From positions 1 to 64,000 of the forward strand of contig CANRNL010000005.1 of the NCBI GenBank assembly GCA_947631965.1: a stretch of 64,000 nucleotides of DNA. Direction: 5' to 3'. Under the pieces are notes generated by a model, which had not been told where the DNA came from, ran no database searches, and worked only from the letters and a program-made list of their open reading frames with translations. Both the position numbers and the translations under genes were made by a program. This DNA comes from an uncultured Clostridia bacterium (GTDB lineage Bacteria > Bacillota > Clostridia > Monoglobales > Monoglobaceae). Numbering within the stretch: the stretch's first letter is position 1; every line of letters begins with the position of its first letter. Shown one piece after another: positions 2,868 through 25,107 of the stretch.

Positions 2868-3770
2868 ATGCTTGATATACTTCATCGTGAATTTGTATAT
2901 GTGTGGTACTATTTCGAGGTTCAGCTGCGGCAAATAGTATTTTACTGGGCGCTCGGTATCGTTATCGGCTCGGTAATATCCGTGTTCGGCAAGCAGAAGA
3001 TACACTCGCTTATGACCGTAATTCAGGACAAGCACCTCGGCGCGTTCGGCATAATTCCGGCGAGCCTTATTGGTATCGCGTCGCCGCTTTGTATGTACGG
3101 CACAATTCCGATTGCCGCGTCGTTTTCGCAAAAGGGTATGCGCGACGACTACCTCGCGGCGTTTATGATGAGCAGTATTTTACTTAATCCGCAGCTTTTA
3201 ATTTACAGCGCCGCGCTCGGCAATTTCGCGCTGTGCGTGAGATTTATTTCGTGCTTCCTGTGCGGAATTGCGGCGGGACTTGTGGTGCGGTTCTGCTTCA
3301 AGGAAAAGCGTTTTTTCAACTTCGACGGCTTTTCGGAGCGCGCGAGCCACGATACCGACCCAAATCCGTTTATGCGGCTTTTGAAAAATATCGGACGCAA
3401 CATAAAAGCGACAGGTCCGTATTTCCTGCTCGGTATATTATTGAGCGCGCTGTTCCAAAGATATGTACCGCAGGATGCGTTTGCAAGCCTGTTTGTGAAT
3501 AACAGAGGCTTCGGCTTACTTATGGCGGCGACTATCGGCGTACCGCTCTACGCCTGCGGCGGCGGAACCATTCCGCTTCTGCAACAGTGGCTCTCAAGCG
3601 GTATGAGTATGGGCAGCGCGACCGCGTTTATGATAACAGGCCCCGCAACGAAGATAACCAACCTCGGCGCGCTCAAGATAGTGCTTGGCATAAAGCATTT
3701 CGCGATGTACTTCGCGTTCGTTATGCTCTACGCCCTCGTGAGCGGATTTATCGTGAATTTGATTGCGTAA
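2868..3770 (+). CDS. Permease of the PF03773 (ArsP/DUF318-like) family
   Basis: 300 aa, very hydrophobic, about eight membrane segments. The two halves carry the paired signature of this family: SPLCMYGTIPIAASF in the first half and YACGGGTIPLLQQWLSSG in the second, each with a Cys next to a Gly/Pro-rich re-entrant loop. Members include the organoarsenical exporter ArsP and many uncharacterised two-Cys permeases. The start ATG lies 3 bp after the larB stop with only weak GGGGA ahead, which fits translational coupling. Substrate is unknown. Linkage to larB makes a role with nickel or a cofactor precursor possible, but the sequence alone does not show it. Confidence 0.82.
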   Translation: MLDILHREFVYVWYYFEVQLRQIVFYWALGIVIGSVISVFGKQKIHSLMTVIQDKHLGAFGIIPASLIGIASPLCMYGTIPIAASFSQKGMRDDYLAAFMMSSILLNPQLLIYSAALGNFALCVRFISCFLCGIAAGLVVRFCFKEKRFFNFDGFSERASHDTDPNPFMRLLKNIGRNIKATGPYFLLGILLSALFQRYVPQDAFASLFVNNRGFGLLMAATIGVPLYACGGGTIPLLQQWLSSGMSMGSATAFMITGPATKITNLGALKIVLGIKHFAMYFAFVMLYALVSGFIVNLIA

Positions 3771-3997: not shown

Positions 3998-4300
3998 TCA
4001 CGCGGAGCGCGAGCAAAACGGGTGAACACGCCTCACCCTACATTGCCGCGACTTTTTATGCTTTGCAAAAAGTGTCTTAACTTTTTGGGTTATTCGATTA
4101 AATAATTTATGTTCTGAAATTATCTATTTTACCTCAAATACAAATGCAGACGCTCGGACTTTTGCAATGTAAAAAAACAACATAATGGAAATTATGTTGT
4201 TTAATAAATATAAAATTTTATAATTTTTTACATTTTCAAGCAAAGATGAAACGCAAAAATTTATATTTTAGCTGACCATTTTTGAATATTTTTCAATATC

Positions 4301-4580
4301 AATCATACATAATAAATGATTATTATTGCACATATTCTAGCATACGAAAAGATTTTAGCATACGAAAATAAGAAAGTCAACGTTTAATAAGTGGCATAAT
4401 TTCATAAATTTGCAAAGCTCTTTTCCTGTTTTTTCGGCATTTTCGACAATCATAATAAATGATTATTTGGCACACGAATGGAGAAGTTAACATTTAATCG
4501 GAAAAACAATTCCATAAACTTGCAAAAACTTTTTCTGTTTTTGGTGTTTTTTATAATAATCATAATAAATGATTATTATA
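4301..4580 (+). repeat. Three related palindromes within ~110-150-bp imperfect direct repeats
   Basis: Palindromes centred on AATCAT-AATAA-ATGATT occur at about 4301-4325, 4448-4467 and 4553-4579. The last has perfect 11-base arms (ATAATAATCAT and its complement). The DNA between copies is also related: both intervals contain a TTAATnnn segment, then CATAAA(T/C)TTGCAAA and a run leading to CTGTTTT. Spacings are about 147 and 109 bp. The symmetry and position upstream of a surface gene suit protein-binding sites or RNA hairpins. Confidence 0.6.
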
Positions 4581-4653
4581 TCACAAAAAATGGGTAATAT
4601 AACATTTAAAATGATTTTATAACTGTATTTTGTATATAAATTTATATATTGTA

Positions 4654-4743
4654 AACAACATAATTTCCATTATGTTGTTAAACCAAAAGGAAAGAGTGAA
4701 ATTTTTAATATTTATTAAACAACATAATTTCCATTATGTTGTT
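4654..4743 (+). repeat. 64-bp direct repeat carrying the AACAACATAAT palindrome
   Basis: The palindrome at 4654-4679 is repeated at 4718-4743, 64 bp later, and both are followed by nearly the same bases (AAGCCAAAAGGAAGGAGTGAA in the second, two or three differences in the first). The AAGGAAGGAGTG stretch resembles a ribosome site but is followed by a stop almost at once. Confidence 0.6.
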
Positions 4744-4826
4744 AAGCCAAAAGGAAGGAGTGAAATAGGGAAATAGAACAAACATTCACTTCAAACCAAG
4801 TAAGTAATAGAGAGGAGCATTTAATT

Positions 4827-7800
4827 ATGACAAAAAAACTTACAAAAAGAATTATCAGCTTTGTGGTAACGCTGGCAATGGTTATGGTACTGCTGCCGAC
4901 AATTCCGGCAATGGCGGACGAAGCGGCAGAGAGTGTGACAGCCGCCACAGAAGTCGAAAGCAAGCCGATTGCACAGGCTGACGGAATAATGCTTATGGAA
5001 GCGGGTGCTGGCAGCAGCAGCTCAAATCCGTGTAAGAGTGCGGATGATGTGGCTACGGCTCTGGGAGGAACCGGAAAGGCTAAGGTTACCGAAAATAATA
5101 CGGTAAAGCTGATTGCTGATATTGAAGATATAGGTGACCTTTATATCAACGCTCCGGAGGATTTAACGCTTGACCTCGCCGATCATAGTATTACACTTAA
5201 AAGCGATTGCACCTTGATACTCATGTCTAATGTTACCATTACCGGCACAGACGGATTTATAACGCAGGCGGATGGTACGACATATCCGACTGTTCAGGTT
5301 GGCGCTAGTCAGAAAGAAGTTACTGTAAAACTCACCGGCGGCACGATTAAAAAAGCGGAAAATACTCCTGAATGTGTTCTTGTCAACGGAAACGATAGTT
5401 TTGAGATGAGCGGCGGCAAACTTGAATCAAATAAATTCTGCTTATATTTGCAGGGTGAATCAAGTGCGAAAATATCAGGAAGTGCGGACATCAACAGCAC
5501 CAGTACAGCTATAGAGATACAAGCGGTTACTGTGATGCAAGGTTCCTCACTTGAGATGTCCGGCGGTAAAATTACATCCACTGGTGTCTGCATGCAGGTG
5601 GATGGAAAAGAAGGTAGTTCCCAAGCAACGGTTACGAGCGGAACGATTGAGAGCACGGCTGCTGACAAGACGACCCCCGCTGTCTATGTAATTACTAACG
5701 GTTCTTTCGGAATGACCGGAGGTAATATTAAAACAACCGGAGGACTGGCGGTTAGTGTAGGAAAAGATGGGGATGACACCAACGCCACGGCGACGATCGG
5801 AGGAGAAGCTGATATAAGCAGAACCGGTGGTGCGAACAAGGGTCTGTTGGAGGTAAAGGGAAAGCAATGCAAACTGAATATTGAAGATAACGCACAAATT
5901 CATGACGAAATAATGGTCTTTAAAAACGGTGAACTGAACATTAGCGGAGGTACAATTACGTCAGAAGGCTACGCTGTAGGCACCAACGGCAGCAAAGAAG
6001 ACAGCGAAAATACAAGTGTAGGCGCGAAGATTAACATTACCGGCGGCACAATCACCGGCGGAAATGGGTCGTGCGCTATTTACGCGCCTGCGGGCACATG
6101 GACGATAACCAACGGCGAAATCACAGGCGGCGCGGGTATCGTAGTACGCGGCGCTGATGTTGACGTGCAGGGCGGTACAATTACAGCCACAGCAGCCTCT
6201 GCCACTAGTATTGATGTGGGTGACGCAGGACACCCGGTTCCCGCAGCAGGTATTACCGTTGACATTGCGGGTTATCCCGAGCAGGAACCGGGTCAGCCGC
6301 ACGTTACGATTAGTGACGGCGCTACCGTAAAGGCAACTGCAGAGGACGGCAAGACTTTGGCTGCGTGCAATAACGGAGAAGCGGTAGTGCCCGGCGACGG
6401 CGGAAAAGTTGAAGCCGCAAAGAACCCGTTTAGTGTATCCGGCGGTACATTTACGACAGGGGCAGGAACAGACAAAGAATCAGACGCTGTCAATCAGTTC
6501 CTTGCTGAAAATTATACATATACTGACGAGGGCATAACGTATAACGGAGACGACGCTGAGGTTACATTAAACAATGTTAAGTGTGCAACTCTGGAGGAAG
6601 CGCTTGAAAAAGCCGTTAACGGCGACACAATCACGCTGCTTAAGGATGTGGACATCAGTGATACCATCACAATTGCATCAGGCGCTTTAACAATTGATTT
6701 GGCAGACCATAATATTACTAGTACCAAAGCACGTGTATTTGTGGTTAAGACCGGCGGCAGCCTTACTATAGAAGGAACAACAGGTGTTGTTTCCAATGAG
6801 TCGGCGAGTGACCCAGACTTCATGGTTATCGCGGACGGCGATAATACGAAATTGACAATCAACGGCGGCACTATTGAACAGAAGAAAGACCAAGTCGCTG
6901 TATCTGTTCAAAACGGAGCCACAATGACGCTTACCGACGGCACTATTAAAGGCTCAGACACAGCAGACACGAACAAAGCAGCCGTAAATGTTTGTTGCGA
7001 TTCTGGCAAATCAGGAGGAGTCTTGACCATGAACAGCGGCACCATTAGCGGTGGATGCTATGCCGTTAACAGTTTTGGGGAAGGCTCCAAGGTTAGTATT
7101 TCCGGCGGCAAGCTTGAAAACACAGAATCAGGATCAGGATTATCTGTTTCAGACAAGGCTTCGGCAGAAATCACGGGTACCGCGGAAGTTAGCGGTAATT
7201 TTGGAGCCACTGTATCCGGCGGCGCTAAGCTGACTGTTTCGGGCGATGCCGAAATTACAGGAACAGGCACAAACGCAGAATCGGGAATTGAAGTTAAAGG
7301 CGAAGGCACTACCGCGGAAATTAAGGAGAACGCGAAAGTCAGCGGTGACTATGGAATCTATGCGAAAGATCAAGCGAAACTGACCGTTTCGGGCGGCACG
7401 GTAGAAGGTACCGCAGCCGGAATCGGCACCAACGGTGACGACAAGGCAACACCTGCAGACATTACAGTCAGCGGCGGCAAAGTCAGCGGTGATACAGCGG
7501 GCGTATATCTGCCATCGGGTAAGATGACCGTAGAAAACGGTGCCAACATCACCGGCCCGGCGGGTATCGTGCAGTTCGGCGGCGAGCTGACCGTTAACGG
7601 CGGCACGATTACGGCTAACGGTACAGCGGACGTAGAAATCGGCGCGTCCGGTAAAAAGGTTCCACCTGCGGCGGTTGTAACGAATAAGCAGGCGGGTTAT
7701 GATGACAATGTTAAAGCAGATCTGAAGGGCGGCAGCTTTACCGCCGCGGAAGGCAAGCCCGCTGTTACATATACCGAGAACGGCGAAGAGGCAGCCCCCG

Positions 7801-10800
7801 CTGCCGAAGCTTTCAAGGTAGAAGGCGGTACGTACACGACAGGCACCGAGGCTGATGTTTCCGTTTATCAGTATGTCGGAAGCGAGCACGCTGTTGATCC
7901 GACAAACGGTACAGTCGGCGCAGAGGCAGAGGTGGCTTTGACGATTATCGACTTCGGTTATGTTGAGGATATTGACGCGGAAGGTGTTGTTGACGCGGAT
8001 GGTATATTCACATCCGTGAAAGACATCAAGTACAACGCAAAAACCGCTCAATGGACTGACGCAACATTCTATTGGTGCTTCAACAGAGCGCTGAAGGATG
8101 GCGAAAATGTAGAAATCACGCTCACCGCTAACGGAAAAACATACACAGACACATGCGAGGGTAACGGCGTTTCACCGCGTTACGCGGCGTCGCTCCTGAG
8201 CGACAGTCAGTTCGGCGATGAGGTTTCAACTAACGGCGTACAGATCGGTGATTATACAATCAGCGGTAAGATTGGCGGAGAATCCGAAACTGTTATAGCG
8301 GCTGCCACCGGCGTTAATCCCGTTAATGTTGACAAGGTGCCCGAGCAGTTAAGCGGTAACTACGCTCCGGTTGTAGTGGCGGCGACGATTGCCGACCGCA
8401 CAGCGGAGGGTACCATAGGAAACGCAGCAACCGATGCCACAGCGACATATGTAGGTACTACGCCCGGTGAAGGCGGTAAGACGATTTACAATATCATAGG
8501 AACCGCGAAGAACCTTAAAAAGCACTTAAACGGCGCAGCAAGCCCAACAGAGGGTTATTGGTTCGGTATTGAAATTCAGGCTCCGACGGGCGTTGATACC
8601 GAAGGCGCCGACAAGACGTACAAGATTACTATTGACGGTGAAGAGGCAGGTTCGTCAACATTTGACGCGCTTCCGCATATTGAAGAGGGTGCAGCCAAGG
8701 GTGCTATAATCTACTTTAATGTGAAGGGCGACGACACCGATAAGTACATCGTTGACATCGAGTGGGCTCAAGACACAACATACACATATAGTATCGACCT
8801 GACAGGCGTTGAGCTTTACGGAGCGGCTTCGTTTGTCGATGGAGAGACAGACAGCTATGGCTTTATTGCCAAGGGCGACAATGACCTCCTCAACAGCCTT
8901 GCACCGTTGGTAAAGGGCGAAAACGAAGAATGGGGTACTCCGATTACAGACTGCAAGGACAACACATTCTATGCGGCGTTCAAGGTAGATCCCGCCAATG
9001 CCGATGGTAAGTCCTACACGGTGAAGTTCGCAAACGAAGCCGGCAACTCTTACTCTACCACAATAGACGCTGCCACCAAGGGCGGTATAGCGTATTTCAC
9101 ACCCGCATGGCAGGACGGTAAAACCGATAATAATATTCCGACCGAAAATTATCAGGGTAAGTACACAGTGACCGTAACCAAGACGGGAGATACAAACCCC
9201 GACGATACGGCTGAAATAAAGGTTTACAAGATTATTTACAAGGCTGTAAACGGCAAGTTTGGCGAAGCTGCGGAACAAGACAGCGGTCTTTACGCAGCGT
9301 CGGTTACGGATGCCGATGCGATTATAGGCACAATGCCCGAAGTTACTCCCGACGACGGATTTAAGGCGGCTGAGTGGGGCGCAGGCGTAGCGAGTGATGA
9401 TGACTACACCATTACCTATACGGCAACCTGCTCGGAGATTGAGAAGTACACGGTAACTTGTGAGACCGCGACAGGCGGTAAGGTAGAGGCTGACAAGACA
9501 GATGTTGCCGCAGGCGATACGGTAACGCTGACTGTTACAGCTGACAGCGGTTACAGCTTCGAAAGCCTTACCGTAAAGGATGCCGACGGCACCGAAGTAG
9601 AGACAGCACAGCAGGCAGACGGCACATATACATTCACAATGCCCTCGTCGAACGTAACCGTAACGGCGACATTCACGGCTGATGTAGTGCCGATGACATA
9701 CACGGTAACGATTGAAACAGCGACCGGCGGTAAAGTAGAGGCTGACAAGACCGCAGACCTTGCTGAGGGCGAGACGGTAACGCTGACTGTTACAGCTGAC
9801 AGCGGTTACAACTTTGGCAGCCTTACCGTAAAGGATGCTGACAGTACCGAAGTAGAGACAACATTGCAGGCAGACGGCACATATACATTTACAATGCCCG
9901 CGTCGAACGTAACCGTAACGGCGACATTCACGGCTGATGTAGTGCCGACGACATACACGGTAACGATTGAAACAGCGACAGGCGGTAAAGTAGAGGCTGA
10001 CAAGACCGCAGACCTTGCTGAGGGCGATACGGTAACGCTGACTGTTACAGCTGACAGCGGTTACAACTTTGGCAGCCTTACCGTAAAGGATGCCGAAGGC
10101 ACCGAAGTAGAGACAGCACAGCAGGCAGACGGCACATATACATTCACAATGCCCGCGTCGAACGTAACCGTAACGGCGACATTCACGGCTGATGTAGTGC
10201 CGACGACATACACGGTAACGATTGAAACAGCGACCGGCGGTAAGGTAGAGGCTGACAAGACAGACGTTGCCGAGGGCGAGACGGTAACGCTGACGGTAAC
10301 TCCCAACAGCAACTACAACTTCGGAAGTCTTACCGTAAAGGATGCCGACGGCGCAAAAGTAGAGACGACGCGTCAGGCTGACGGCACATATACATTCACA
10401 ATGCCTGCATCTGATGTAACCGTAACGGCGACATTTTCTCGTAAAAGCACAGGCGGCGGCCGCGGTGGAAGCGGAGGCGGAAGTGCAAGCGGCGGAGAGA
10501 CGAGCTACAGCGTAAGTGTTCCGTCAAAATCAAATAACGGTAGTGTAAGTGCAAACCTCAAAAATGCAACAAAAGGCTCTAAGGTAACGTTTACCGTTAC
10601 TCCCAACATGGGATATATGGCAAGCGGAGTAACCGTTAAAGACGCAAACGGCAACGAGATTGCAGTTACGGATAACGGAGACGGAACATATACGTTTGTA
10701 ATGCCCGACTCTAAGGTATCAATCGCGGCAGAGTTCGTGAAGAAAGAAACCGGAACGCCCGATACAACGCCTACTCCCGACGCGGAGGAAAATTGTCCGT

Positions 10801-11351
10801 CAGCGAAGTTTACCGACGTTGACCAAAGTCAGTGGTATCACGAGGGCATTGATTACGCGTTGACCAACGGACTTATGAACGGTATGAGCGATACGACGTT
10901 TGAGCCGAATTCGACTACGACGCGCGCAATGGTAGTAGCTGTTTTGTACAGACTTGACGGTTCGCCGGCGACCGCTCAGGCGGGCTTCGCGGATGTTCCC
11001 GCGGACGCTTGGTATGCCGACGCGGTAGCGTGGGGCGAAGCCAACGGTGTTGTAAGCGGTTACAGCGCGGAAACATTCGGACCGAGCGATTCTATCACCC
11101 GTGAGCAGATGGCGGCGATTTTGTACAGATACGCTCAGTATAAGGGTGTTGACGTATCGGCACAGGCTGATCTCTCCAAATATTCCGACGCGGACGCGGT
11201 AAGCGATTGGGCGAACACGGCTCTCAGCTGGGCGAACGCGGAAGGATTGATTTCGGGTATGAGCGATGCCGAGCTCGCGCCGACAGACACGGCGACACGC
11301 GCTCAGGTAGCGTCAATCCTTATGAGATTTTGCGAAAATATCGTGAAATAA
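4827..11351 (+). CDS. Giant SLH-anchored beta-helix surface protein
   Basis: 2174 aa, ATG preceded by GAGAGGAG. A signal peptide (KKLTKR, hydrophobic core, AMA then DE) covers residues 1-31. Residues ~60-560 and ~561-1030 are two related right-handed beta-helix blocks with many SGG-x-I-type rungs; each block opens with a matching LTLDLADHSIT / LTIDLADHNIT segment, so the helix has been duplicated. Residues ~1030-1540 are of unknown fold. From ~1541 four near-identical 84-85-residue bacterial repeats (TVTIETATGGKVEADKT...) and one diverged copy follow, with a Gly/Ser-rich linker between. Three SLH domains end the protein (~1993-2174; ITREQMAAILYRYAQYKG in the second). SLH domains are known to bind pyruvylated secondary wall polymer, so the protein is placed on the cell surface. 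No enzyme motif is seen; an adhesin or S-layer-associated role is inference. Confidence 0.9.
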   Translation: MTKKLTKRIISFVVTLAMVMVLLPTIPAMADEAAESVTAATEVESKPIAQADGIMLMEAGAGSSSSNPCKSADDVATALGGTGKAKVTENNTVKLIADIEDIGDLYINAPEDLTLDLADHSITLKSDCTLILMSNVTITGTDGFITQADGTTYPTVQVGASQKEVTVKLTGGTIKKAENTPECVLVNGNDSFEMSGGKLESNKFCLYLQGESSAKISGSADINSTSTAIEIQAVTVMQGSSLEMSGGKITSTGVCMQVDGKEGSSQATVTSGTIESTAADKTTPAVYVITNGSFGMTGGNIKTTGGLAVSVGKDGDDTNATATIGGEADISRTGGANKGLLEVKGKQCKLNIEDNAQIHDEIMVFKNGELNISGGTITSEGYAVGTNGSKEDSENTSVGAKINITGGTITGGNGSCAIYAPAGTWTITNGEITGGAGIVVRGADVDVQGGTITATAASATSIDVGDAGHPVPAAGITVDIAGYPEQEPGQPHVTISDGATVKATAEDGKTLAACNNGEAVVPGDGGKVEAAKNPFSVSGGTFTTGAGTDKESDAVNQFLAENYTYTDEGITYNGDDAEVTLNNVKCATLEEALEKAVNGDTITLLKDVDISDTITIASGALTIDLADHNITSTKARVFVVKTGGSLTIEGTTGVVSNESASDPDFMVIADGDNTKLTINGGTIEQKKDQVAVSVQNGATMTLTDGTIKGSDTADTNKAAVNVCCDSGKSGGVLTMNSGTISGGCYAVNSFGEGSKVSISGGKLENTESGSGLSVSDKASAEITGTAEVSGNFGATVSGGAKLTVSGDAEITGTGTNAESGIEVKGEGTTAEIKENAKVSGDYGIYAKDQAKLTVSGGTVEGTAAGIGTNGDDKATPADITVSGGKVSGDTAGVYLPSGKMTVENGANITGPAGIVQFGGELTVNGGTITANGTADVEIGASGKKVPPAAVVTNKQAGYDDNVKADLKGGSFTAAEGKPAVTYTENGEEAAPAAEAFKVEGGTYTTGTEADVSVYQYVGSEHAVDPTNGTVGAEAEVALTIIDFGYVEDIDAEGVVDADGIFTSVKDIKYNAKTAQWTDATFYWCFNRALKDGENVEITLTANGKTYTDTCEGNGVSPRYAASLLSDSQFGDEVSTNGVQIGDYTISGKIGGESETVIAAATGVNPVNVDKVPEQLSGNYAPVVVAATIADRTAEGTIGNAATDATATYVGTTPGEGGKTIYNIIGTAKNLKKHLNGAASPTEGYWFGIEIQAPTGVDTEGADKTYKITIDGEEAGSSTFDALPHIEEGAAKGAIIYFNVKGDDTDKYIVDIEWAQDTTYTYSIDLTGVELYGAASFVDGETDSYGFIAKGDNDLLNSLAPLVKGENEEWGTPITDCKDNTFYAAFKVDPANADGKSYTVKFANEAGNSYSTTIDAATKGGIAYFTPAWQDGKTDNNIPTENYQGKYTVTVTKTGDTNPDDTAEIKVYKIIYKAVNGKFGEAAEQDSGLYAASVTDADAIIGTMPEVTPDDGFKAAEWGAGVASDDDYTITYTATCSEIEKYTVTCETATGGKVEADKTDVAAGDTVTLTVTADSGYSFESLTVKDADGTEVETAQQADGTYTFTMPSSNVTVTATFTADVVPMTYTVTIETATGGKVEADKTADLAEGETVTLTVTADSGYNFGSLTVKDADSTEVETTLQADGTYTFTMPASNVTVTATFTADVVPTTYTVTIETATGGKVEADKTADLAEGDTVTLTVTADSGYNFGSLTVKDAEGTEVETAQQADGTYTFTMPASNVTVTATFTADVVPTTYTVTIETATGGKVEADKTDVAEGETVTLTVTPNSNYNFGSLTVKDADGAKVETTRQADGTYTFTMPASDVTVTATFSRKSTGGGRGGSGGGSASGGETSYSVSVPSKSNNGSVSANLKNATKGSKVTFTVTPNMGYMASGVTVKDANGNEIAVTDNGDGTYTFVMPDSKVSIAAEFVKKETGTPDTTPTPDAEENCPSAKFTDVDQSQWYHEGIDYALTNGLMNGMSDTTFEPNSTTTRAMVVAVLYRLDGSPATAQAGFADVPADAWYADAVAWGEANGVVSGYSAETFGPSDSITREQMAAILYRYAQYKGVDVSAQADLSKYSDADAVSDWANTALSWANAEGLISGMSDAELAPTDTATRAQVASILMRFCENIVK
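9447..10440 (+). repeat. 255-bp tandem repeats inside the 4827 gene
   Basis: Four units start at 9447, 9699, 9954 and 10209, giving periods of 252, 255 and 255 bp. Units 2 and 3 are nearly identical at the DNA level, which points to recent duplication or homogenisation. A fifth, diverged unit lies at about 10507-10745. Each encodes one InlB/Flg_new-like beta repeat. Confidence 0.85.
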
Positions 11352-11595: not shown

Positions 11596-11625
11596 TTGAC
11601 ACAGAAATTTGAATAATGATAAAAT
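11596..11625 (+). promoter_or_regulatory. Promoter of the 11697 gene
   Basis: TTGACA (11596-11601) and TAAAAT (11620-11625) with an 18-bp spacer, about 70 bp before the start codon. Confidence 0.6.
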
Positions 11626-25070: not shown

Positions 25071-25107
25071 CAAATTCCGATTAAATTTAATCGGAATTTG
25101 TTTTTTT
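25071..25107 (+). terminator. Intrinsic terminator after the 19447 gene
   Basis: A perfect 30-bp palindrome with 15-base arms (CAAATTCCGATTAAA and its complement) is followed directly by seven Ts. It closes the 11697-19447 transcription unit. Confidence 0.88.

Follow-up and report, generated by a model that had tools for sequence, protein, structure and literature searches.

In the E. coli fim switch, a tyrosine recombinase flips a promoter before a surface-structure gene (PMC2784873). In C. difficile, the recombinase RecV, which is of the XerC/XerD family, inverts several switches and is described as not being encoded near cwpV (PMC2784873, PMC8844915). In the cwpV switch, imperfect 21-bp repeats flank 195 bp, and the account in PMC2784873 places its promoter outside the switch, with inversion acting on termination. 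A gut community study also reports a link between Clostridia inverton group 139 and tyrosine invertase group 35 (PMC11892184).

Here we describe a candidate switch in the genome of an uncultured gut clostridium (G000; 1.95 Mb in 48 contigs, 81% complete). By the window we mean the whole stretch of 64,000 nt that was analysed, which is on contig C5 of this genome. We consider it quite likely that the window holds an orphan invertible promoter, captured OFF, that no longer has a recombinase of its own and that an enzyme encoded on another contig, C24, probably flips in trans. The features of the window that bear on this reading are as follows.

4141-4170, + strand: 3'-terminal recombinase gene relic immediately ahead of L; it reads QMQTLGLLQC, where family members commonly end in QIQKLGLLRC-stop
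4176-4201, + strand: left recombination site L, 26 nt, core GGAA
4202-4717, no strand: segment predicted to invert by L x R2 (the alternative, L x R1, would flip 4202-4653)
4305-4324, no strand: operator-like palindrome copy 1, 2 mismatches to AATCATAATAAATGATTATT
4352-4380, - strand: best promoter-like match, directed away from the giant gene: TTGACT-17-TAAAAT, with the -10 preceded by TG
4448-4467, no strand: operator-like palindrome copy 2, AATCATAATAAATGATTATT
4558-4577, no strand: operator-like palindrome copy 3, AATCATAATAAATGATTATT
4654-4679, - strand: inner right site R1, core TTCC on the + strand, inverted relative to L
4718-4743, - strand: outer right site R2, core TTCC on the + strand, inverted relative to L; with a 10-nt inner flank it makes up the 36-bp arm 4708-4743
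4827-11351, + strand: predicted controlled gene; its product is a surface protein of 2174 aa that contains InlB-type B repeats and three SLH domains

The stretches 4176-4211 and 4708-4743 form a perfect 36-bp inverted repeat of exact reverse complements, as a preliminary description of this DNA had stated, and none of 40 dinucleotide shuffles of 4100-4826 gave an inverted repeat longer than the 13 bp reached there. They enclose 496 bp (4212-4707) with a GC content of 22.6%, compared to 49.2% for the window, and the repeat ends 83 bp before the ATG of the giant gene at 4827. There is no ORF of 80 aa or more within 4212-4707, which agrees with the earlier account of AT-rich, non-coding DNA. Inverted repeats around non-coding DNA ahead of a gene are the layout of an inverton. 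Within each arm is a 26-nt site, AACAACATAAT-GGAA-ATTATGTTGTT, and we also found the additional third copy that had been noticed at 4654-4679. The site is palindromic, as had been observed for the arms, with 11-bp arms about GGAA/TTCC. The central 4 bases set its direction: with GGAA at L and TTCC at R1 and R2, L faces the opposite way to the two right-hand sites. The 36-bp repeat consists of the 26-nt site and a 10-nt inner flank, TAATAAATAT, which is common to L and R2 and absent at R1; within 4101-4826 it occurs only at these two inner flanks. A flip in the past and then a duplication on the spot would leave such a trace, and may have done so here.

All three window sites have the 6-bp core TGGAAA and all three sites on C24 have CGGAAA, which is one base apart. 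The window switch is built like a module of the family described below in that its two inverted sites have the fixed arms ACATAA/TTATGT and share the 6-bp core. Exact 26-nt sites occur at two loci only in G000, three at the window and three on C24.

The preliminary description had reported no recombinase gene in the window, and we found no tyrosine or serine recombinase match anywhere on contig C5. It had proposed a search of the genome for one, and this search led to a tyrosine recombinase that adjoins the only other copy of the repeat.

L032 10357-11205, - strand: tyrosine recombinase of C24, 282 aa, with Phage_integrase and SAM-like domains

On C24 the same switch sits between this gene and a giant surface gene of at least 3262 aa with Spy0128-like isopeptide domains. 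The recombinase is Xer-like and is not a housekeeping Xer, because its NCBIfam scores are under the cut-offs: the nearest model is XerA with 139.1 bits (cut-off 220), and XerD and XerC give 128.6 (329.6) and 111.9 (335.15). The NCBIfam models for tyrosine-type DNA invertases match this protein (P0001) weakly, at 29.5 and 26.1 bits where the cut-offs are 221 and 222. The other recombinases of the genome were considered as partners and ruled out. For the 11 loci (L021-L031) we took about 1.5 kb per side, contig permitting, and with up to 4 mismatches allowed, L024, the C24 locus, was the only one to show the site. Since the genome is 81% complete, a further recombinase could be missing from the assembly.

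The site arms are the same at the window, at C24 and in a sister genome of the same genus (G001). The interiors of the window and C24 switches are homologous, with 72-81% identity, and lie in opposite orientations relative to their own genes (score 114 vs 28). A doubled site is found at one end of the switch in the window, on C24 (L032 9827-9895), in G001 (L034 432-497) and in G007 (L101 1222-1280). The doubled end is on the gene side in G000 and on the recombinase side in G001 and G007.

We scanned genome contigs with the two recombinases of the genus as queries and found at least 39 relatives. We kept 35 of them (L051-L085) and excluded L086-L089, which are partial or 26-30% identical, from the family counts. 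Four of the 35 end no more than 40 nt after the recombinase match, leaving 31 usable loci among the matches listed. At 30 of these 31 listed loci, a site just downstream of the recombinase has an inverted partner further on; the sole exception is L080, which has no inverted partner site. Among the matches listed, the first site comes 6-48 nt past the end of the recombinase match, and when the sites are chosen on their arms alone, the two members of each of the 30 pairs have the same 6-bp core, of which there are 19 versions. Random re-pairing of the cores gave a mean of 2.8 identical pairs and a maximum of 10 in 20,000 trials. Across the family, among the matches listed, the arms are therefore constant and the core varies freely between loci. 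Seventeen of 51 genomes of the order have the recombinase at E <= 1e-60, and an inverted pair of exact sites with the same core is present in 15 of these 17 and in 0 of the other 34 (Fisher p 4e-11). A homologous module, with a recombinase that is 53% identical, is found in a named isolate, Cuneatibacter caecimuris DSM 29486 (L081). We did not count isolated single sites as switches (G022 C13, G024 C18, G026 C13, G029 C46, G034 C56, G036 C16 and C59, G044 C94), and four isolated single sites with the common core AAAA/TTTT may be something else. The recombinase of the module in G013, a genome from another genus of the family, matches in two frames (L100 3869-4698) and looks frameshifted or misassembled.

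The gene past the far site varies, and its products include long proteins with a secreted-like start and TetR-like, helicase-like and acyltransferase-like proteins (named by eye). Homologous modules before different cargo genes in different Clostridia would suit a mobile-element remnant, MITE-like and with terminal inverted repeats, as would AT-rich, non-coding DNA with inverted termini. The preliminary description had allowed for such a remnant and had said that many scattered copies of the arm would count against a switch. However, the only exact sites are the three at the window and the three on C24, and in the family, among the matches listed, the first site keeps its fixed place 6-48 nt after the recombinase match. 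We rejected the scattered-repeat or mobile-element reading because the exact sites are confined to two loci. The suggestion is left without support and we think it very improbable.

Both orientations of one switch can be seen in the assembly of G026. Contig C4 has the order recombinase, site, segment, site, gene flank. On contig C3, the gene flank of C4 (one mismatch in 106 nt including the site) is joined to the other end of the segment, the junction is exactly at the site, and 124 nt of the segment are common to C4. C3 is the inverted product in the same assembly as C4, and since both junctions of one switch are present, we conclude that this recombinase-site family inverts.

In G001, contigs C23 and C25 have exactly 77 nt in common, and this overlap ends inside a site. 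The C25 record bears a NODE name, which we take to indicate a SPAdes assembly with k = 77. Beyond the overlap, C25 continues with T and the predicted L x R2 inversion junction with C; the branch base agrees with the prediction for L x R2, and we count the overlap in favour of an invertible switch. A contig end lies no more than 125 nt from a site at 8 of 18 switch-bearing places, compared to 0.22 expected; the 8 are spread over four genomes, and some of them are not independent of each other. The 18 are from a total of 23 switch-bearing places, with G023 C8, G029 C40, G037 C69, G043 C101 and G044 C88 left out. The window contig runs unbroken through the switch with no inverted form of the locus in the assembly, and it is from the relatives that we infer recombination here.

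Among the matches listed, 24 pairs of interiors, some with shared members, score at least 60; the two interiors have the same orientation in 11 pairs and opposite orientations in 13. For L053/L054 and L053/L066, the gene flanks are homologous and the interiors are inverted. With homologous switches in relatives occurring in both orientations, the invertible switch that the preliminary description had suggested is well supported.

The number of promoter-like matches in the window region is not above that in shuffles. The best match there faces away from the giant gene and its C24 counterpart faces its own giant gene, which would mean that the window switch was captured OFF and the C24 switch ON, going by the predicted direction of the promoters. 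The direction of the best promoter agrees with the interior orientation in 24 of 24 homologous pairs (overlapping members, among the matches listed). Over 30 family switches among the matches listed, this rule would label 10 ON and 20 OFF, with L055 and L081 being near ties. The second giant gene has its own good promoter-like match at 11596-11625, so we believe that the switch mainly concerns the first.

Copies of AATCATAATAAATGATTATT number three in the window segment, two in the C24 segment and one, with 3 mismatches, in the remaining genome. These palindromes do resemble operators, and the 26-nt sites are palindromic as well, which would fit the other alternative raised earlier, a cluster of operator sites, here taken to serve a dimeric regulator and to be inverted only incidentally. 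Such a cluster leaves unexplained the asymmetric inverted core, which among the matches listed is the same within 30 of 30 loci and differs between loci. It also leaves unexplained the position right after the recombinase gene and the rejoined flanks in G026. What stands of this proposal is that there are separate operator-like palindromes inside the switch; as an account of the inverted, locus-specific cores it fails, and we find it hardly credible. An HTH_3-type repressor may act on the predicted switch promoters. On contig C32 (L033 4854-5563) there are two divergent HTH_3 regulator genes, and the stretch between them, conserved in G001 as well, is similar over 59 nt (83%) to a part of the window switch.

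Directly upstream of the first site, C24 has a recombinase gene and the window has only the 3' relic. The DNA of the relic scores 35 against the C24 end, 38 against G001 and 42 against L052, with shuffle maxima of 20-31, and gives no signal with most of the more distant members of the recombinase family. In BLAST, the relic together with the site matches the G013 module with an E of 3e-18 and L052 with an E of 2e-14. Judging from these alignments, the window switch once had a recombinase gene or was copied along with the end of one. The window is an orphan derivative of a recombinase-site-cargo module. We found one other orphan site pair, at 5990/6219 of G022:C21 after an ileS-like gene (named by eye), with no recombinase within the 3571 bases covered.

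A relic beside L would also be seen if the switch were locked, with its recombinase lost, the C24 enzyme inactive on it and the gene either frozen OFF or served by a promoter outside the segment. The core that is one base off the C24 core and the unbroken window contig are consistent with this. However, the three window sites are mutually identical in their core-defined form when the interior is only 72-81% identical to that of C24, and the window arms equal those at C24 and G001. Family cores vary while the arms stay, and since they do so freely, the core difference alone need not block the enzyme. We regard a locked switch as unlikely.

If the window instead holds an orphan promoter that is flipped in trans, as we prefer, the C24 recombinase would pair L with R1 or R2, and strand exchange within the short asymmetric core would flip the segment. 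That this enzyme acts on the window site is suggested by the identical arms, despite the one-base difference in the core. In the assembled orientation the promoter would face away from the gene at 4827-11351 (OFF), and a flip would turn it round, so that it reads across the right-hand site into the giant SLH surface gene (ON). An ancestral recombinase gene would have been directly upstream of L, and as only its last ~10 codons are left, flipping is probably now up to the C24 enzyme. We also lean, with somewhat better than even confidence, towards a wider scheme in which one recombinase serves an addressed set of switches, with the shared arms as the key and the locus-specific core confining recombination to its own locus. 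Orphans would be modules minus the recombinase, so that unlinked giant surface genes could share one enzyme yet flip independently. That several switches in one genome always differ in core fits our data, where such pairs are too few to show it.

The neighbourhood of the switch has some further features. From 4827 to 53850 there are six very long ORFs in a row on the + strand (1855-3866 aa), and four that we scanned have domains of the SLH, Calx-beta, GLUG and B-repeat type. A perfect hairpin with a 13-bp stem is found at 25071-25100, in the gap between two giant genes. G001 has no orthologue of the locus, with both the permease and the first giant gene absent. The permease (2868-3770) is 91% identical to copies at three places in G013, two of which end at contig ends, and the DNA downstream of these copies differs from that of the window. 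Its presence in G013 and absence from G001, which is of the same genus, suggests transfer or loss. The stretch 3907-3956 matches G001 (L034 11399-11350) with 84% identity and is possibly a dispersed repeat.

With this analysis, an orphan switch of an uncultured clostridium has been assigned a probable recombinase. The family-wide rule of fixed arms, a locus-specific core and a recombinase just upstream means that such switches can be found from assemblies alone, and with the module in Cuneatibacter caecimuris DSM 29486 the rule can be put to the test. The relic would represent one route from a self-contained switch to one that is controlled in trans. In text searches, with supplements outside their scope, we found no paper carrying the site strings.

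Among the known systems, the RecV switches (cwpV, flg, cmr), as far as the published descriptions cited above go, are alike in having an XerC/D-type tyrosine recombinase that acts on several unlinked switches from afar, and cwpV is also a very large cell-wall protein gene under a switch. The cwpV promoter is outside its switch, whereas the promoter-like match of the window is inside the segment. The likeness to RecV-type switches would be in mechanism only. The fim switch, as described, shares the promoter flip by a tyrosine recombinase before a surface-structure gene and differs in having two local recombinases, FimB and FimE. Inverton group 139, as reported in PMC11892184, consists of Clostridia invertons with a tyrosine-type recombinase nearby, unlike the window switch, which is without one; together with invertase group 35 it may be the recombinase-site family found here. 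The principle of the switch is already known, and the contribution of this case is the orphan with its recombinase relic and the rule of the locus-specific core.
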